Of a DNA stretch of 41,175 nt, positions 3,904 to 28,896 are shown piece after piece. Where the stretch lies: assembly GCA_016875025.1 (NCBI GenBank), contig VGSH01000015.1, positions 1-41,175 of the forward strand. The letters are read 5' to 3'. A program made the translations under genes and the position numbers. Source of the DNA: Deltaproteobacteria bacterium (lineage in GTDB: Bacteria > Desulfobacterota > WTBG01 > CAIYCZ01 > CAIRTM01). Within the stretch, counting starts at the first letter, position 1, and the number at the start of each line of letters is the position of its first letter. Below the pieces are notes generated by a model. That model saw nothing but the letters and a program-made list of their open reading frames with translations. It was not told the DNA's origin and made no database searches.

Positions 3904-4074
3904 ATGGTACGAGTAGCACGTGAAACATGTGTCGGCTGCGGCGGATGCGTTGATCTATGCCCGCGAACAGCAATTCGCTTCATTAAAGATCGCGCTTTTA
4001 TCGACTCCGCGCTGTGCCTGGAATGTAAAACATGCGTCAAGGTCTGCCCGGTTAAGGCTCCCCAGGAGATTTAA
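3904..4074 (+). CDS. 2[4Fe-4S] ferredoxin
   Basis: A 56-residue bacterial-type ferredoxin with two cluster motifs, CVGCGGCVDLCP and CLECKTCVKVCP. The start is ATG 3904, preceded by AGGAGG at 3892-3897; longer in-frame extensions lack cysteines and a ribosome site. As first gene of the operon it is the likely soluble electron carrier or a small subunit of the complex encoded downstream. A small hairpin at 4111-4127 (CTCTGT/ACAGAG) lies in the gap after it and could tune expression of the rest. Confidence 0.9.
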   Translation: MVRVARETCVGCGGCVDLCPRTAIRFIKDRAFIDSALCLECKTCVKVCPVKAPQEI

Positions 4075-4151: not shown

Positions 4152-4433
4152 TTGGAATCCAAGGCTAAAGTATCCAATAAAACATTACGGTGCATAGCTG
4201 TACAGGCAGGCGCTGCCAAAGCGTTTAAGCCCGGCAACCGCGTAGTGGCGCGGCCGGTGTGGGACAAGGACCGCTGCGTTCGCTGCGGGGTTTGCTATAT
4301 CTACTGTCCGCATGGCGCCGTTGTCCGTCAGGATGACGGCTTTTTTGATGCTAATACTGACAGATGTTCCGGCTGCGGGGTCTGTCATCGTGAATGCTGG
4401 TTTGGTGTTATCGGCATGGCTCAGGAGGCATAA
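4152..4433 (+). CDS. PorD-like 4Fe-4S delta subunit
   Basis: A 93-residue protein resembling the delta subunit of pyruvate/2-oxoacid:ferredoxin oxidoreductases. After about 35 residues it has the PorD pattern PVWDKDRCVRCGVCYIYCP and then DRCSGCGVCHREC, enough cysteines for two [4Fe-4S] clusters. The proline after the last cysteine is replaced by tryptophan (ECWFG). The start is a TTG at 4152, supported by AGGAG at 4141-4145 with correct spacing and by the lack of any in-frame ATG before the Fe-S domain. The stop lies two bases before the next start, so translation is probably coupled to the PorB-like gene. Confidence 0.8.
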   Translation: MESKAKVSNKTLRCIAVQAGAAKAFKPGNRVVARPVWDKDRCVRCGVCYIYCPHGAVVRQDDGFFDANTDRCSGCGVCHRECWFGVIGMAQEA

Positions 4434-4435
4434 CG

Positions 4436-5122
4436 ATGGATAAATTCAGCTTGATGGTCCCCAATTTCATCCCTGCGCAGGAATACTTCGATCCTCAACA
4501 CGGCGAGACCTGCATCGGCTGCGGTGTGTCGCTTGCCGCCCGCCTTGTCGGCAAGGCGCTGGAAAAGGCGTGTGCCGGAGCAGTGTGCGAGCGCCGCAGC
4601 GGCGCCGACCTGTTCGGCGTGAAGACCGATGCCGCCTTTATGCGCATTAAGAAAGGCAAAGCCGAGCTCATCATCTGCTTTGACGACGAGCCCTCCAATG
4701 CACTGCAGGACGCGCTGGTGAAAAAGCTCCCGGCCGTGGCCGTTGCCGAAGGCATCGCCTATGTCGCCACCGCCTGCCCCAGCTATCCGTTCGACCTGAT
4801 GGAAAAAGTAAAGCGCGCCATGGATGCCGATGGCAGCGCCTATATTCATATTCTGACCCCCTGCCCGTCAGCCTGGCAGTATCCGACCGAGAACACCGTG
4901 AAGGTCGGTTTCAAGGCGGTTGAGTCCTGTGCGTTTCCGCTCTATGAAGTTGCAAGCGGGTTCTACAACCTGACCAACACAACCCTGAAGCCCCGGTCCG
5001 TCGAAGAATACATCCGCGCGCAGGGCCGCTTCGAGAAGGCGACCGACGCGCAGGTGAAAAGCGCCGCGGCAACGGTGGAGAAAGAATATAAAAAACTGCT
5101 TGAGAAGGCTCAGCCCGAATAA
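4436..5122 (+). CDS. Shortened PorB-like protein lacking the thiamine-diphosphate motif
   Basis: 228 residues, against roughly 300 or more for PorB. Both ends are recognisably PorB: ETCIGCGVSLAARL near residue 25 (the CxGCG cluster motif), and in the C-terminal half YVATACPSYPFDLMEKV, ILTPCPSAW, PLYEVASGFYNLT and VEEYIRAQGRF. The middle, where PorB has the thiamine-binding GDGG...N segment, is replaced by a shorter unrelated stretch, so thiamine-dependent catalysis is unlikely. No PorA or PorG is present. I infer a structural or electron-transfer role. ATG 4436 has AGGAGG at 4423-4428. Confidence 0.75.
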   Translation: MDKFSLMVPNFIPAQEYFDPQHGETCIGCGVSLAARLVGKALEKACAGAVCERRSGADLFGVKTDAAFMRIKKGKAELIICFDDEPSNALQDALVKKLPAVAVAEGIAYVATACPSYPFDLMEKVKRAMDADGSAYIHILTPCPSAWQYPTENTVKVGFKAVESCAFPLYEVASGFYNLTNTTLKPRSVEEYIRAQGRFEKATDAQVKSAAATVEKEYKKLLEKAQPE

Positions 5123-5141: not shown

Positions 5142-5388
5142 ATCCCTGAAAGGAGAACGGGAACATGTCAGATATAAAATGGTTACCTGATGGACAGAAA
5201 ACGTTTGATAAGCTCATGGCCGCGGTTCCGGAAGCGATGCGCGATGCCATTAAGCCCAAGCTGCTGCAGATGCTGGCCGGCAAGGCTGCCGGACAGCCGG
5301 TAAGCGGCGACCTGGTTAAAACCTGGGTCAAAGAGGACCTGCCTGAGCCGCAGAGAAGCGCTCTGATGGCGGCCCTCGGCATGAAACC
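5142..5388 (+). repeat. Duplicated ribosome site plus first domain, copy 1 (copy 2 at 6085-6333)
   Basis: The Shine-Dalgarno region and the first ~75 codons of the NuoE-like gene closely resemble those of the NuoF-like gene at 6085-6333. Both begin ATCCCTGAAAGGAGA, and a near-identical stretch runs through AGATATAAAATGGTTACC into the coding region. The similarity covers the non-coding ribosome site too, so this is duplication of DNA rather than protein convergence. Confidence 0.8.
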
Positions 5389-6085
5389 CGACGGCGACCA
5401 GAAGCCGGCCGCTCCTGTTGCGGCTGCTGCCGGGTGGCAGGGCAACGCCGAGGTCATGTTCGAGCGCATGCTGCAGGAAGTGCCCGATATGATGCGCGAG
5501 GTGTTCCGCGGCAAGCTCATGGGTATTGCCAATGAGAAGGCCAAGGGCGGCCCGATCGCCGAGGATCACATTCTGTCGATCGTGAAGGAGATCGTGCCCG
5601 ATCCCTTCAAGACCAATATTTTGAAAGCCTTCGCCACCATGGGCGGCGTTGATTTGAGCAACCTTGAGAAGCTGATCGAAAGCACCCCCGGCGGTCAGGA
5701 AACGGTTATCGGACTTCTGCATGCGGTGCAGGCCGAATTCGGCTATTGCCCCCGTGAGGCCGTCACCATGATAAGCCAGCGCAAGTGTGTGCCCATGGCC
5801 GTCATGTACCGTCTGCTGACCTGCTACAGCGCCTTCCGGCTGCAAAAGCCCGGCAAGCACGTTGTCACCGTGTGCACCTCCACGGGTGCCTATGTTAACG
5901 GCGGCGGCGCGCTCCTGAAGCAGATTAAGGACAAAATCGCCAAAACCGGCGCGAACATCACGGTTGAAACCGCGCGCGATCTGGGCTGCGCTAACGTGGC
6001 ACCGGCCATCATGGTCGACGGTGAGATTTTCAGCGGTGTGCAGGCCCAGGCAAAGCTTGAGCAGATTTTCAGCGAATCGAACTAA
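5165..6085 (+). CDS. NuoE-like protein with two N-terminal PCP_red-like domains
   Basis: 306 residues in three parts. Residues ~5-72 and ~97-165 are two helical domains resembling PCP_red (the C-terminal domain of protochlorophyllide reductase BchB). Residues ~170-306 resemble NuoE/HydC, the thioredoxin-like [2Fe-2S] subunit of NADH dehydrogenases: an early ETVIGLLHAVQAEFGYCP, VTVCTSTGAYVNGG, and RDLGCANVAPAIMVDG. Of the four canonical ligands only C237 is in place; the second (VCTGTAC in NuoE) is alanine, and the later CLGAC pair reads DLGCA, with one shifted cysteine, C275. A normal [2Fe-2S] cluster is therefore doubtful. Start ATG 5165 with AGGAG at 5151-5155. Confidence 0.75.
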   Translation: MSDIKWLPDGQKTFDKLMAAVPEAMRDAIKPKLLQMLAGKAAGQPVSGDLVKTWVKEDLPEPQRSALMAALGMKPDGDQKPAAPVAAAAGWQGNAEVMFERMLQEVPDMMREVFRGKLMGIANEKAKGGPIAEDHILSIVKEIVPDPFKTNILKAFATMGGVDLSNLEKLIESTPGGQETVIGLLHAVQAEFGYCPREAVTMISQRKCVPMAVMYRLLTCYSAFRLQKPGKHVVTVCTSTGAYVNGGGALLKQIKDKIAKTGANITVETARDLGCANVAPAIMVDGEIFSGVQAQAKLEQIFSESN

Positions 6086-6108
6086 TCCCTGAAAGGAGAG
6101 ACGGGAAA

Positions 6109-8103
6109 ATGGCAGATATAAAATGGTTACCCGATGGACAGGAAACATTTGATAAAGTGATTGCCGCCGTGCCTGAAGGGATGCGGGCTGCGATGAAGCC
6201 CAAGCTCATCGAGATGCTGGCCGCCAAGGCCGGCGGTAAAAAAATAAGCCGGAAAATCGTAGAGGCCTGGGTGAAGGAAGACCTGCCCGAGCCGCAGCGC
6301 AGCGTTTTGATGGCAGCGCTGGGCCTTGACAGGCCCGCGGCGAAGGCCGATGCGGCTGCCGTGAAAAAGGCTGCCTGGAAGGTAAAGGGCGCGGTGAAGA
6401 ATGCCGCTGACCTAGCGAAAATGAAGGCCGCTGGCCAGGAACTGCTTGCGCCCAAGACGCTCCGGATCACGGTGAGCAGTGCTTCCTGCGGACTTGCCAA
6501 AGGCGCCGAGACAGTGGCGGCCGCTTTGCAGGACGCAGTCAAGAAGCAGAAAGTTAACGCTGACGTTGTCCTGGTCGGCTCCAACGGCATGAGCTGGGCC
6601 GAGCCCATGGTGAGCGTTATCAAGGCCGGCAAACCCTGCATAGTCTACGGCAATGTCACGGCCGATGCGGCTGCCGGAATCGTCAAGGCCGCTGCTGCCG
6701 GCAAGATTGTAGAAGACCTTGCCCTGATGCGCGTTGACAGCATTAAGGTCGATGTTACCGGCGAGAAAATCAAATACGCCGCTGATAAGGCCCCTGCCGC
6801 AGCACTTGCGAAGGTCAAGGACGGCAGCAAAATAGATTTTTTCAAAAAGCAGCTCAAAATCGTATCGCGCAACGCGGGCATTATCGCCCCGGACCGCATC
6901 GAGGAATATATCGGCCTTGGCGGCTATCAGGCCCTTGCAAAGGCGCTTGGGAGCATGAAGCCCGCTGATGTTATCAAAGAGGTCAAGGAATCCAAACTGC
7001 GCGGCCGCGGCGGCGCGGGATTTCCCGCAGGCATCAAGTGGGAGGCCTGCAGCAAGGCAGCCGGCGACAAAAAATACATTGTCTGCAACGGCTCTGAAGG
7101 CGACCCTGAAATCGGTCTGCATAAGAGTTTCCTGGAGTCCGACCCGCACATGCTGATTGAAGGCATGCTGCTGGCCGGGTATGCCGTGGGCGCTGATGAA
7201 GGCTATGTGTACCTGAACGACCGCTACGTGCTGGCAGTCGAGCGGGTCCAGACCGCCATTGAGCAGGCCGAGAAGGTCGGGCTGCTCGGCAAGAATATCC
7301 TCGGCAGCGGCTTTTCATTTACTTTGAAGGTCAAACGCGGCGGCGGCGCTTATGTATGCGGTGAGGAAACCGCGCTCTTGAACGCGCTGGAAGGCTCATT
7401 TGCCGAACCGCGCCCGCGTCCCCCGCTGCCTGTGCATCAGGGCTTGAACGGCAAGCCCACCGTGGTCAACAACCTTGAAACCCTTTCCACAGTTTCGGCT
7501 ATCGTGCTCAAGGGCGGCAAATGGTTTGCCGGTATCGGCACACCTGCCAGCAAGGGAACCAAGATCGTGGCCCTGTCCGGCAATGTGGCCCGGCCCTGCT
7601 GGGTTGAAGTCGCCATGGGTACGGTCATCGGCGATATCATTACAGCGTTTGCCGGCGGCACTGCCAGCGGTAAGAAGGTGAAAGCCTTCCAGACCGGCGG
7701 CCCCTCGGGCGGCATTCTGCCTGCCTCCCAGCTGAAGCTGAAGCTCGACTATGACGCGCTCGGCAAGGCCGGCAGCCTGCTGGGCTCCGGCGGTCTGCTG
7801 GTGATGGACGAGGACTGCGATGTCGTTGATGTGGCCCGCTTCCTGACAGAGTTTTTCCTGGAAGAGTCCTGCGGCAAATGCACCCCGTGCCGTGAAGGCG
7901 TCAAGCGTCTTAACGAGATCGTGAGCTGTATCGCCGACGGGCGCGGCACAAAAGCGCAGCTGGCCCTGGTGAAGACCATGGGCGAGGCCATGAGCGCGGC
8001 CTGCTTCTGTGCGCTGGGTAAAACCGCGGCCGCCCCGATTCTGACGGTGATGAAGCACTTCCCCAAAGACGTGAACGGGAAGATGTTGAAGACTATTAAC
8101 TAA
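6109..8103 (+). CDS. NuoF-like NADH/FMN subunit with PCP_red-like and thioredoxin-like N-terminal domains
   Basis: 664 residues. Residues 1-70 are a third PCP_red-like domain. Residues ~118-200 form a thioredoxin-like domain as in HydB/HndC, but only the cysteine in ASCGLAKGAE remains; the second ligand pair is serine (VGSNGMSWAEP). From ~250 it is a NuoF core: GRGGAGFPAGIKW (FMN/NADH site, ~299), CNGSEGDP (~326), AYVCGEETALL (~417), PPLPVHQGLNGKPTVVNN. The N3-type [4Fe-4S] site is complete: ESCGKCTPCREG (~587-593) plus the distant cysteine in CFCALG (~631). There is no C-terminal ferredoxin domain. It should oxidise or reduce NAD(P)H through FMN. ATG 6109 has GAAAGGAG upstream. Confidence 0.88.
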   Translation: MADIKWLPDGQETFDKVIAAVPEGMRAAMKPKLIEMLAAKAGGKKISRKIVEAWVKEDLPEPQRSVLMAALGLDRPAAKADAAAVKKAAWKVKGAVKNAADLAKMKAAGQELLAPKTLRITVSSASCGLAKGAETVAAALQDAVKKQKVNADVVLVGSNGMSWAEPMVSVIKAGKPCIVYGNVTADAAAGIVKAAAAGKIVEDLALMRVDSIKVDVTGEKIKYAADKAPAAALAKVKDGSKIDFFKKQLKIVSRNAGIIAPDRIEEYIGLGGYQALAKALGSMKPADVIKEVKESKLRGRGGAGFPAGIKWEACSKAAGDKKYIVCNGSEGDPEIGLHKSFLESDPHMLIEGMLLAGYAVGADEGYVYLNDRYVLAVERVQTAIEQAEKVGLLGKNILGSGFSFTLKVKRGGGAYVCGEETALLNALEGSFAEPRPRPPLPVHQGLNGKPTVVNNLETLSTVSAIVLKGGKWFAGIGTPASKGTKIVALSGNVARPCWVEVAMGTVIGDIITAFAGGTASGKKVKAFQTGGPSGGILPASQLKLKLDYDALGKAGSLLGSGGLLVMDEDCDVVDVARFLTEFFLEESCGKCTPCREGVKRLNEIVSCIADGRGTKAQLALVKTMGEAMSAACFCALGKTAAAPILTVMKHFPKDVNGKMLKTIN

Positions 8104-8137: not shown

Positions 8138-9076
8138 ATGCTTAAATTAAAAATCAACGGCAAGAACATCAAGGCAAAGGAAGGCATGAGCGTGCTTGAA
8201 GCTGCGCGCGCCAATGGAATCGATATTCCGACCCTGTGCTCCAATGATGCGCTCAAGCCCTACGGGGCCTGCCGCATGTGCATCGTAGAGATCGAGCAGG
8301 GCAGCCGCACCACGATTGAGGCTTCCTGCACCTACCCGGCAGCCGAGGGTATGGCAGTGAAGACCGACAGCCCCCGGGTCATCGCCGGCCGCAAGCTCGT
8401 GGTTGAGCTGCTCATGGCGCGCTGCCCCAATGTGAAGGCGGTGCAGGATCTGGCACGCGAATACGGCATTGCCGACAGCAGCGTCGACTGGGGTAAGGAC
8501 AATGAATACTGCATTCTGTGCGGTCTGTGCGTACGGGCCTGCAACGAGGTGGTCGGCGCCAACGCAATCCAGTTCGCCGGCCGCGGAGCAGGCAAAGTGG
8601 TCGACAGCCCGTTCCACCAGTCGGCTGAGGACTGTGTGGCCTGCGGATCGTGTGCCTATGTGTGCCCGACCGGCATCATCAAGAAAAACGATCTTGCAGC
8701 ATCGGCAACCTGTTCGCCTGAGGGCGCCAAGCAGGAAGGCCCCAAGCGTGAAATTCTTAACTGGCAGGTTGAATACGCCCTGAAAATCTGCACCAAGTGC
8801 GGCAATCCGTTTGCTCCGGTTCAGCATCTTGACAAGCTTTCAAAACAGTTCAATGCGCTGCCCCAGTTTTTTAACCTGTGCCCATCCTGCCGCGAATATA
8901 TTGTGATCGACCGCGACAAGTGCCTGGGCTGCGGTTCCTGCATGGAAAACTGTCCCGTGGGCGCCCTCGAGCTTGATGACAAGGGCGGCTACGACAAGCA
9001 CGCGCAGGTCTTTGAGCAGAACTGCATGGCCTGCCACACATGCCAAATCTACTGCCCGGTCGGGGCTATCAGCTGA
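8138..9076 (+). CDS. NuoG/HydA-N-like multi-cluster iron-sulfur protein
   Basis: 312 residues. N-terminal plant-type [2Fe-2S] domain with ligands C34, C45, C48 and C64. The His/Cys [4Fe-4S] segment usual in NuoG and HydA (HxxxCxxCxxxxxC) is reduced to LLMARCPNVKAVQDLAREYG, so that cluster is absent. Then two [4Fe-4S] motifs (C125-C135 and C166-C176), a CxxC...CxxC pair at 218/221 and 248/251 (zinc ribbon or extra cluster), and a C-terminal ferredoxin-like pair (C262-C272, C296-C306). There is no hydrogenase or molybdopterin domain. It probably wires the NuoF-like flavin to a partner such as the flavoprotein encoded next. Confidence 0.85.
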   Translation: MLKLKINGKNIKAKEGMSVLEAARANGIDIPTLCSNDALKPYGACRMCIVEIEQGSRTTIEASCTYPAAEGMAVKTDSPRVIAGRKLVVELLMARCPNVKAVQDLAREYGIADSSVDWGKDNEYCILCGLCVRACNEVVGANAIQFAGRGAGKVVDSPFHQSAEDCVACGSCAYVCPTGIIKKNDLAASATCSPEGAKQEGPKREILNWQVEYALKICTKCGNPFAPVQHLDKLSKQFNALPQFFNLCPSCREYIVIDRDKCLGCGSCMENCPVGALELDDKGGYDKHAQVFEQNCMACHTCQIYCPVGAIS

Positions 9077-9092
9077 GAGAAGGAGAACATAC

Positions 9093-10433
9093 ATGGCTAC
9101 TAAATATATTTATGATCTTGCAATCGTCGGCGCAGGGCCGGGCGGGCTCTACACCGCCATCTGCGCCGCTAAAAAGGGCATGAAGGTCGTGCTCATTGAA
9201 AAGCGCAAGGATATCTCCAAAATGACCCGCTACTGCAGCGAGCACATCATCCTGGAGGAAAACTATAACGGCGACACCATGTTGCTCGATATCGGCAAAG
9301 AGCTCAACAGCAATGGCTGGGTTGATGCCGACAGCGTCAACAAGCTGCGCTCGAAGAACAACGGCTGGGAAATCACCTTCAAGGGGGCCCTGTGTCCGGT
9401 GCGCGACAAGTTTTACTATTCGCGCAACCTGAAGCACAATGCCCACTATGCCTGGGAAGACCGGCACCCTTTTGCCTGGAAATACGACAAGGCCTATTTC
9501 CTGCAGCAGCTGCTCGACCAGGTGCTTGCTCTGGGCGTAGAGTATATCCCTGAGACAACCTGCTATGAAGCCGTCGACAGTGCCGAAGGCGTGACCCTGA
9601 AGTGCGTAACCAAGGGTAAACGCTTCCTGATGTTCGCTAAAAAGCTCGTGGCCGCCGATGGCGCCAGCGCGCAGGTGCCTCAGTCACTCGGCATGAATGA
9701 AGATCGCATCTACTTTGCTTCGGCTTTGACGCTTGCCGTGTATATGTCCAATGTCAAGGACTACAGCCCGGCGAACTGGTGCGGTTTCTGGGGTCTGTGC
9801 TACGGTTCAAATTTCGCGCCGCTGCTGGGCACCGGTCCTGCAGGTCATTTTGACTGGGCCGACGTCATCCTGATCGGTCATCCCAAGCAGATGCCCGGTG
9901 AGCTGTTTGAGTTCTTTACCAAAAAGAGCCCGGTCGCTTACATGTTCAAGAATGCCAAGGTCGAACAGATGCACTCCTGCATGACCAAGGCCTACGCGCC
10001 CATGAAGAAGCCGTACAAGGGCAACACGCTCGTGATCGGCGACTCGGCCGCATTTGTTGAAACCCAGATGCAGGGCGCCATCAACTGCGGACTCTGGGCT
10101 GCCGATGCCATTGAGAAAGAGTTCAACGGCCAGCCCGGCTTTGCGGAGTATACGAAAAAATGGCTCGACAGTTTTGAGTTCAACGACGACGGCATGCTGC
10201 AGGTGCAGGCCGGCTATGCGCTTATTCCGTTCTACACTGATGAAGAGGTGGAGTACCTGTTCTCGTTGCTTGACGGGGTGACCATGCCGGGCAACTGGAG
10301 TCAGTACGCGTCCCCGCGCATGATGTGGCATGAAATCCATAAGCATGACAACCGCATCCAGTCCGAGCGTCCCGAGATCTGGAAGAAGATCAACATGCAG
10401 CAGTCCAAGACCCTGAGCGACAGTATGTCGTAA
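9093..10433 (+). CDS. FAD oxidoreductase of the geranylgeranyl reductase/FixC-like family
   Basis: 446 residues. The Rossmann FAD motif is at the N-terminus (DLAIVGAGPGGLYTA, then VVLIEKRKD), and the second FAD contact GNTLVIGDSAAFVETQMQGAINCG sits at ~310-335, as in geranylgeranyl reductases and FixC-like proteins. No membrane segment or extra Fe-S motif is evident, so electrons must come from a partner. As last gene before a strong terminator it is the best candidate for the substrate-reducing (or oxidising) end of the operon's electron chain. Substrates in this family include isoprenoid double bonds and quinones; which applies here cannot be read from sequence. Start ATG 9093 after AGAAGGAGAA. 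Confidence 0.75.
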   Translation: MATKYIYDLAIVGAGPGGLYTAICAAKKGMKVVLIEKRKDISKMTRYCSEHIILEENYNGDTMLLDIGKELNSNGWVDADSVNKLRSKNNGWEITFKGALCPVRDKFYYSRNLKHNAHYAWEDRHPFAWKYDKAYFLQQLLDQVLALGVEYIPETTCYEAVDSAEGVTLKCVTKGKRFLMFAKKLVAADGASAQVPQSLGMNEDRIYFASALTLAVYMSNVKDYSPANWCGFWGLCYGSNFAPLLGTGPAGHFDWADVILIGHPKQMPGELFEFFTKKSPVAYMFKNAKVEQMHSCMTKAYAPMKKPYKGNTLVIGDSAAFVETQMQGAINCGLWAADAIEKEFNGQPGFAEYTKKWLDSFEFNDDGMLQVQAGYALIPFYTDEEVEYLFSLLDGVTMPGNWSQYASPRMMWHEIHKHDNRIQSERPEIWKKINMQQSKTLSDSMS

Positions 10434-26469: not shown

Positions 26470-26944
26470 AAGCGGCGTCGAAATATCGGTATCGTTATCG
26501 GGTCTATTATCACAATCAGGCTTTAATGACTGTATCCATTGCCGCCATTTGAGGCGACCCCGTCAATTGCCCCTGCATCCCCGGTATCACGTGGTATAAA
26601 ATAACGGTCATACGCACTGTCAGGGGAACTCTCAAGGGCTGTCTTGTTTGCGGTTATATCTGGATGTATCAGAATGAAAATTGTAAAAAATTATAATCTT
26701 AAAGCATTATTAATTATTCTTTATAAAAAAATGATATCAGGCAAGGTGTTCTGTTACTGAACCTTGAGATTATTTTGAAAAACAGGAGGTCGTATTTAAG
26801 AAAAATATTTTTTAACCTATGATTTAACTGTTACCGGTGTTGGTGAAAGCTTTTTTCCTGTACTATCCGGAAACACCGGGGACCCGTGAAAAATAAATTA
26901 CACCTGAAATTGATAGGTTACATACTTTGATGAAGGGATTAGCG
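26470..26944. other. Intergenic region before the kelch gene
   Basis: 475 bases, strongly A/T-rich from about 26670 to 26830. It holds the hexamer array at 26485-26502 and an 8-base inverted repeat (CCGGTGTT at 26834 with AACACCGG at 26872, 30 bases apart). No gene is convincing. Confidence 0.4.
26485..26502. repeat. ATCGNN hexamer array (site 1)
   Basis: ATCGGT, ATCGTT and ATCGGG in direct succession. Related arrays lie at 32643-32666, 32738-32755 and 38524-38541. Confidence 0.6.
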
Positions 26945-28896
26945 ATGAGCACACAAAAGACCATGCTGCGCGCTGCGGCAACATCCATGTGTATTATTGC
27001 ATGTCTGGTGATGCCTGGTACATGTCCGGCACAATCCGCGATGTGGACCTGGATGAGCGGATCTGACCAGATAGAAGAGGCCGGCGTTTACGGGACCAAG
27101 GGTGTCGCAGATGCTGCCAATGTGCCCGGCGCCCGTACAGGAGCTGTTTCCTGGATTGACACATCCGGCGACCTGTGGATGTTTGGGGGCAGAAATTTCA
27201 AAGCTGCCGGATTCGGCCTTTTCAACGACCTGTGGCACTTTGATAATGTCATAGGGCAGTGGACCTGGATGAGCGGATCTAACCTGACAGATCAGGACGG
27301 CATCTACGGCACCATAGGTATCCCGGATGCCGCCAATGTGCCCGGAGCCCGTACAGGAGCCGTTTCCTGGATTGACAGATCCGGTGATTTGTGGATGTTT
27401 GGGGGGATAGGTTTTGATGGCGATGGAAACTATGGCTGGCTGAACGACTTGTGGAGTTATGATACTGATACAAGTCAGTGGACCTGGAGGAACGGACTAT
27501 CCTTTATCAGTATATTTTATGAGAAAGGGTTTCATGATGACAAGGGTTATCCTCAGCCCTACGTCAGGCCCGGGGCGCGTGAAGGAGCCATTTCGTGGAC
27601 AGCTTCGGGTTTATGTGGATGTTTGGCGGGTTTGGTTATCAGGATATTTCTTACTTCGACTATCGGGAATCCGATAGCACATACTGTTGGGACAGAGACC
27701 CCCGTTCGTGCCCGTCCCCAGGCGTGTTGAATGATCTGTGGGTCTATAATAAAGCCACAAATGAGTGGGCCTGGGTAAGCGGCTCGAGCGACAAGGGCGC
27801 GCTGGGCTCCTATGGCACAATGGGTGAAGAGGACTGCGCCAACGTGCCCGGGGCGCGTGAAGCCGCTGTTTCCTGGATAGACAGAGCCAACAACCTGTGG
27901 CTGTTTGGAGGTGTCGGTAAAGACAGTCAGGTCAGCGAAGGCTTCGTCATTCGCATGAACGACTTGTGGCGCTATAATCCTGTTACAAAGAAGTGGACCT
28001 GGGTAAGCGGCTCGGACGTAGGAGGCCAGATAGGCGTCTATGATGTAAGTAACGGCGATCTCGTTCCCGGATGCCGCGAAGAGAGCATTTCCTGGATAGA
28101 TAACGCCGGCAAACTATGGCTGTCGGGGGGGTTCGGTCAGGCCAGCACATACTCTCCCATTGGCGGCCTCCTGAACGATTTGTGGACTTTTGATAATGAA
28201 ACAAAAACCTGGGACTGGGTAAGCGGTTCAGACGAAATCTCGAATCCAGACGACACTATCATCGTCGGGGTTTATGGTACCAGGAGGATCCCGGATGAAG
28301 ATAACGTTCCCGGGGCGCGTGAAGGCGCTATTCCCTGGATAGACAGCCTGGGAAGCCTGTGGCTGTTTGGGGGCTATGGTTTCGACGGCGACGGAGCCTA
28401 TGGTTACCTGAACGACCTGTGGCTGTTCGGTTTTTCCAAGTGTGAATTTGATGTCGACTGCGACGACGGCCTGTTCTGCAACGGTGAAGAAAGCTGTGCG
28501 TCCGGGGCCTGCCTGGCCGGAACGAATCCCTGTGGCGGCGATACACCGGTCTGTGATGAGGCAGGCGATATTTGTGTTACAGGCTGCGTTGATGACAGCG
28601 ATTGCAGAGATGCGTACAAATGCCAAAACGGCATATGTGTCCCGAGGTGCCGGGTTTCAATCAAGTATAAACAACTGATCTCGGCAAAGCTGCTCAAGGA
28701 TAAGAAAGCCACTTTTAAAATCATCACCGGCTCTTTCGGCGACGTTGACCTTGGGCCGGATCTTCAGATACTTGGAATAAAGACCAACACGAAAAAGGGT
28801 TTGGTAAATGTTAAGGCGCTTGTGCCTGCCGGACTTGCACCCCAGATCATCCCGGTCTGGGTGGGCGACTGCTATGGAGAGATCGTGATCCAGTAG
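26945..28896 (+). pseudogene. Secreted kelch-repeat protein, broken by a frameshift at ~27598
   Basis: The gene begins at ATG 26945 (AAGGGA at 26933-26938) with a signal peptide ending near CPAQSA. Six kelch-like units follow, each with W-x-W-x-SGS, VPGAR-x-GA-x-SWID and LW-(M/L)-FGG, then LNDLW. In the third unit the expected SWID reads SW followed by a shifted frame; comparison with the sister units (TGGATAGACAGC) indicates a 4-base deletion after 27598. The first frame ends at 27730; the second continues in register to 28896. After the kelch part come a cysteine-rich segment (CDDGLFCNGEESC, CVDDSDC) and a ~75-residue C-terminal domain. It was probably a surface or extracellular protein. 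Confidence 0.85.

Follow-up and report, generated by a model that had tools for sequence, protein, structure and literature searches.

Several described systems bear on the locus analysed here. In solved 2-oxoacid:ferredoxin oxidoreductases, a Gly-Asp-Gly motif together with an Asn binds the Mg of thiamine diphosphate, and a CxGC motif ligates the proximal cluster (PMC5020499). PorGDAB combined with BfuABC is predicted to form the Por-Bfu NAD/ferredoxin 2-oxoacid oxidoreductase (Schut et al., 2022, PMC9304861). The same work describes characterised non-bifurcating homologues without clusters B2-B5, and our definitions of clusters B1-B5 and C1 follow it. GGR-family proteins carry out FAD-dependent reduction of isoprenoids (PMC12004948). 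Thermococcus cotranscribes GGR with a dedicated ferredoxin, which seems to supply it with electrons, apparently as its sole donor (PMC6401487). In the part of the literature that we covered, we found no description of a thiamine-less PorB or of a GGR-linked Bfu complex.

The window (the whole 41,175-nucleotide stretch of DNA that was analysed) carries an operon of seven genes in the order Fd-PorD-short PorB-NuoE-NuoF-HoxU-GGR, all on the forward strand (+). No PorA or PorG gene lies within this operon, which for PorA agrees with the preliminary description of the locus. The first gene (3904-4074, +) encodes a 56-aa 2x[4Fe-4S] ferredoxin (Pfam Fer4, E = 2e-12) and the second (4152-4433, +) a PorD-like 2x[4Fe-4S] subunit with all eight cluster cysteines present (PorD_Arch, E = 6e-22; TIGR02179 above cut-off). 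The short PorB gene (4436-5122, +) is followed by a NuoE/BfuC-like subunit with N-terminal repeat domains (5165-6085, +; PF01257, E = 1e-22; alignment) and a NuoF/BfuB-like FMN/NAD(H) subunit (6109-8103, +; TIGR01959, E = 2.5e-138; PDB 7t2r_B, E = 5e-142; alignment). A HoxU/BfuA-like protein (8138-9076, +) comes next, with [2Fe-2S] and 2x[4Fe-4S] sites and a C-terminal 2x[4Fe-4S] extension. The last gene (9093-10433, +) encodes an FAD oxidoreductase of the geranylgeranyl-reductase superfamily, the presumed catalytic partner. It matches TIGR02032 over residues 7-338 with 68 bits (E = 8e-19), below the curated cut-off of 159; we therefore regard it as related to the superfamily rather than as a curated TIGR02032 member. 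A repeat of ~70 aa (WLPDG..TFDK..AAVPE.MR...) occurs N-terminally in the NuoE/NuoF region (5165-6600), twice in NuoE and once in NuoF; it is PCP_red-like by eye and gave no Pfam match at 0.01. Further along the window, a Kelch-like repeat protein at positions 26927-28896 is split between two frames that overlap, perhaps through a frameshift.

The short PorB gene is an intact open reading frame of 228 codons with no internal stop; it starts with ATG and is preceded by AGGAGG. The preliminary description had recognised PorB in its CxGCG start and C-terminal part, and profile and structure searches bear this out. The four best NCBIfam PorB models match residues 92-225 with E-values from 9e-40 (residues 95-222) to 1e-21, and the best solved relatives in a PDB search are the beta subunits of oxalate oxidoreductase and Methanosarcina PFOR. 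CxGCG stands at the N-terminal start and the C-terminal half is of PorB type; a Pfam search at 0.01 returned no match. The predicted structure (pLDDT 81, with residues 1-13 and 47-59 poor) compares to the OFOR beta subunits 5exd/5c4i with Z 18 at ~3 Å, so in the model the PorB fold is retained. The same description put the protein about 100 residues short: the shortness stands, the size does not, since relative to canonical relatives of 305-320 aa some 80 aa are absent, as three separate segments. When 27 short and 72 canonical PorB sequences are aligned, the junctions on the forward strand fall approximately at 4570/4571 (~16 aa with ATGC, which holds canonical cluster Cys 3), 4657/4658 (~34 aa with GDGGT...ERG) and 4693/4694 (~23 aa with YMNTG). 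The GDG and NTG thiamine/Mg motifs, invariant or nearly so in 74 canonical rows, are absent from the window protein and from 26/26 aligned short rows, and the GDGG...N region had rightly been reported missing. With six full-length rows added, the motifs are absent from all 32 PorA-less PorBs. Because the GDG and Asn that bind Mg-thiamine diphosphate are missing, the window protein is, to judge by its sequence, unable to bind thiamine diphosphate by the established mode.

We think it fairly probable that the short PorB is a non-catalytic subunit of an NADH-driven complex feeding a GGR-family flavoenzyme. It would derive from the beta subunit of a Por-Bfu type 2-oxoacid oxidoreductase, minus thiamine binding and PorA, and would now act as a structural, probably iron-sulphur-carrying subunit. 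PorB, PorD, NuoE, NuoF and HoxU may form an NADH dehydrogenase-type complex in which electrons from NADH would enter at the FMN of NuoF and pass to cluster B1 and then to the HoxU clusters. From there, PorD and/or the small ferredoxin would hand them to the FAD of the GGR-family enzyme, which would reduce a probably isoprenoid double bond. We infer this chain (NADH-FMN-B1-HoxU-PorD/PorB/Fd-FAD) from gene content and from the wiring of Bfu and OFOR enzymes. In the window copy, which no longer has the clusters proposed as a requirement for bifurcation, the transfer would be simple and NADH-driven. The preliminary description had supposed that the PorB fold serves a role other than oxidising 2-oxoacids. 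The loss of the thiamine site throughout the short homologues, the absence of PorA and the retention of fold and constraint all support this view.

We examined the cysteines of the short PorB for a putative cluster. C26 and C29 (C26-x-x-C29, 4511-4522, +) correspond to ligands 1 and 2 of the canonical proximal cluster and are kept in 26/26 and 24/26 short rows, respectively, and in 100% of canonical rows. C143 (4862-4864, +), canonical ligand 4, is conserved without exception, in short and full-length thiamine-less rows as well as in canonical ones. The third canonical ligand is gone in 32/32 PorA-less PorBs, leaving three of the four proximal [4Fe-4S] ligands in the window protein (C26, C29 and C143). 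The idea that all four canonical cysteines were kept proved wrong; the apparent third, C51, is conserved in only 11%. C81 (4676-4678, +), the Cys of an (I/V)C(F/Y)DNE strand, occurs in 25/26 short rows, 6/6 full-length thiamine-less rows and 100% of canonical rows. From the OFOR structures we take it to be a non-ligand in canonical PorB, though invariant there, and it is therefore only a candidate replacement ligand. The loss of canonical Cys 3 and the conservation of C81 in canonical PorB too make the cluster itself uncertain. The short PorB could accordingly be a purely structural, cluster-less relic kept for the PorD-NuoEF interface, and besides the deleted third ligand, the C29 to Ser change in the second short paralogue of the window genome speaks for this. 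Against it, C26, C29, C81 and C143 are each kept in at least 30 of the 32 PorA-less forms (6/6 in the full-length, type-D rows) while neighbouring thiamine residues have drifted or been deleted, and we consider the relic unlikely, if a serious contender. We prefer a non-catalytic PorB that probably still carries iron and sulphur.

The search for the short form covered 395 genomes of the phylum, followed by 17 of the class, where 27 short copies came from 14 of the 17; family f3 of the class yielded none at the cut-off used. The hits listed elsewhere in the phylum cover the C-terminal half only, mostly in open reading frames of canonical length. In a pattern scan of genome contigs, by which other phyla were sampled, the only short copies seen (L033 and L034) were from uncultured delta proteobacteria. 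Wherever contigs allow, short PorBs sit in PorD-PorB-NuoE-NuoF cassettes; PorB homologues without GDG beside NuoF-like genes, which the preliminary description had suggested looking for, are found in 14 genomes, with full-length versions in six.

The cassettes fall into several types. Type A, that of the window, includes GGR in 8/8 complete contigs, with the ferredoxin gene first and GGR directly 3' of HoxU in all eight. Type B consists of PorD-PorB-NuoE-NuoF only, without HoxU or GGR, and includes a second copy in the window genome; GGR is therefore not an obligatory partner. Most type-B cassettes lie in divergent orientation to a gene of PanE (2-dehydropantoate reductase) type (L093, L099, L101, L102, L104, L105, L015), and a sigma-factor-like gene follows several of them. 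Type C comprises short PorBs in other arrangements (L094, L098, L103). Six genomes have type D, in which a PorB of full length (304-313 aa) has no adjoining PorA; in L174, L175, L193 and L195 this PorB is followed by NuoE, NuoF, HoxU, Fd and GGR. All six type-D PorBs have (I/F/V)xR in the position of GDG, and their third cluster Cys is replaced or gapped. Pairs of small proteins with probable twin-arginine signals lie after type-D cassettes (L174:9861-11228, L193:14417-15729, L195:8501-9829). Two half cassettes were also seen: L194 has PorD-PorB-Fd-GGR and no Nuo genes, and L176 has NuoE-NuoF-Fd-GGR and no Por genes. Together they suggest that the Por and Nuo modules are both tied to the Fd-GGR pair, and L176 indicates that GGR does not strictly require PorB. 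Three type-A cassettes (L129, L132, L136) lie a few kb from UbiD-like and UbiA-like genes that may belong to menaquinone synthesis, a weak hint at quinones. Within the class, a genome commonly carries several GGR-related genes.

Next, we compared the clusters of the NADH module. The window NuoF keeps the FMN domain and B1 and has lost the ligands of B2 (the His + Cys pair), B3/B4 and B5 (the cysteines). In the window NuoE, VCTSTGAY and DLGCAN replace CxxxxC and CLGxC, and most ligands of the [2Fe-2S] cluster C1 are lost; most paralogues keep them, the relative G071 being another that has lost most. Canonical Por-Bfu NuoFs keep B1, B2 (His + Cys) and B5, and B3/B4 in five of six examined. The type-D NuoFs of L174, L193 and L195 likewise keep B1, B2, B3/B4 and B5, as does that of L098, beside a short PorB (its B2 His + Cys pair, missed by the pattern search, was read by eye). 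L094 and L175 have B2 without B3/B4, NuoFs of types A and B are without B2-B4, and B5 is also lost in the NuoFs of the window and its relatives G071 and G185. As far as ligand residues tell, cluster loss is graded across relatives. Since the characterised non-bifurcating homologues are likewise without B2-B5, the window complex is predicted to be non-bifurcating. The FMN/NADH loop reads N-x-S-E-G in place of N-x-D-E-G in all short-PorB cassette NuoFs, the window included, and in L175 and L176; N-x-D-E-G is kept in the NuoFs of L174, L193 and L195 and in Por-Bfu. With this Asp to Ser change and the NuoE ligand loss, even NADH use by the window complex could be altered.

An alternative is continued bifurcation or confurcation, in which NADH would drive the GGR-type reaction jointly with reduced ferredoxin, and the place of the lost B3/B4 domain would be taken by the separate ferredoxin or by the extension of HoxU. 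The type-D cassettes and L098, which keep B2-B4 (and B5) beside Fd and GGR, would fit this alternative, as would the ferredoxin gene that opens the window operon and the 2x[4Fe-4S] extension gained by HoxU, not present in Por-Bfu HoxU. However, the window lacks the defining Bfu core in NuoF as well as most C1 ligands in NuoE, and we judge bifurcation there improbable. Simple NADH-driven transfer to the flavoenzyme is the reading we retain for the window complex.

A catalytic 2-oxoacid oxidoreductase formed by the short PorB with a PorA encoded elsewhere is very improbable. The window genome does have five POR_N genes (C46, C33, C31, C157 and C62), the first three of which were examined. The two stand-alone alpha genes inspected, C46 and C33, each adjoin a beta gene of their own that carries GDG, C31 has the length of a single-chain PFOR, and the Mg-TPP ligands are missing from the short PorB in any case; we rejected this candidate. 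An assembly error, which the preliminary description had named as a possible refutation, or a pseudogene has practically no likelihood left and was likewise rejected, nothing having been found in its favour: the form recurs as 27 copies in 14 genomes, the short PorBs make up one clade (support 99/97, and 100/98 in a second tree), and dN/dS, measured against the sister species, is 0.10 for the short PorB and lies at 0.05-0.10 for the other operon genes compared, by which measure the short PorB is under purifying selection.

As for origin, canonical PorB relatives often stand in PorG-PorD-PorA-PorB-NuoE-NuoF-HoxU operons, whose hosts are Chloroflexota, Spirochaetota, Latescibacterota and deltaproteobacterial genomes, and also members of this class (L197, L198). 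Deriving the whole cassette from one Por-Bfu operon minus PorA is too simple. In the NuoF tree, cassette NuoFs group with those of L174, L175 and L176, apart from Por-Bfu NuoFs, so the histories of PorB and NuoF may differ. The PorB tree gave no support (51/0) for uniting the short and the full-length thiamine-less PorBs in a single clade. A plausible intermediate is a full-length thiamine-less PorB with the Bfu core intact, Fd and GGR and no PorA (L174, L193, L195), and a possible next one is the short PorB with B2-B4 kept (L098). We tentatively propose, at less than even confidence, a new Bfu-derived class, 'GGR-Bfu', in which an NADH (ancestrally also ferredoxin) module would drive a GGR-type alkene reductase via a thiamine-less PorB with a re-ligated [4Fe-4S] cluster (C26, C29, C81, C143). 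The genomes of the class would then preserve a path that begins with a full-length thiamine-less PorB beside a bifurcating core and ends with a short PorB whose cassette has lost that core. PorB, Bfu and GGR are each already known; the cofactor-free PorB and its combination with GGR appear to be new. To our knowledge, thiamine enzymes rarely lose their cofactor yet stay under selection. Here an oxidoreductase beta subunit has parted from its catalytic half and been kept, probably as an electron relay or scaffold, with plausible intermediates preserved within one bacterial class. With a GGR-family flavoenzyme, the Bfu list would gain a further third-substrate type. Since close relatives differ from one another in individual clusters (B5, B2, B3/B4, C1), the cassettes form a natural series of losses in which to ask which clusters are required for bifurcation.

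We finally set the locus against the nearest known systems. Like Por-Bfu, itself predicted, the window operon has PorD, PorB, NuoE/BfuC, NuoF/BfuB and HoxU/BfuA in one operon and in the same gene order, and the short PorB shares ~37-46% identity with canonical members over aligned columns. Unlike Por-Bfu, it is without PorA and PorG, its PorB is without the thiamine site, BfuB has lost B2-B5, its NuoF groups apart, and a GGR-type flavoprotein and a ferredoxin are added. With the beta subunits of oxalate oxidoreductase (5c4i/5exd) and Methanosarcina PFOR (9bt4), the short PorB shares the fold, CxGC, the C-terminal PC cluster motif and the C-terminal half, but it is ~80 aa shorter and without the thiamine/Mg motifs and the third cluster Cys. 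The window NuoF resembles non-bifurcating Nqo1 and Syntrophus HydAB in having FMN and B1 without B2-B5 (PMC7311640, PMC9304861), whereas by tree it belongs to a cassette lineage whose relatives keep bifurcation-type clusters. As in Thermococcus kodakarensis TK1087-TK1088 (PMC6401487), genes for a ferredoxin and a GGR-family flavoenzyme share one operon, but in the window five more electron-transfer subunits, NuoEF-like and PorDB-like ones included, stand between the two.
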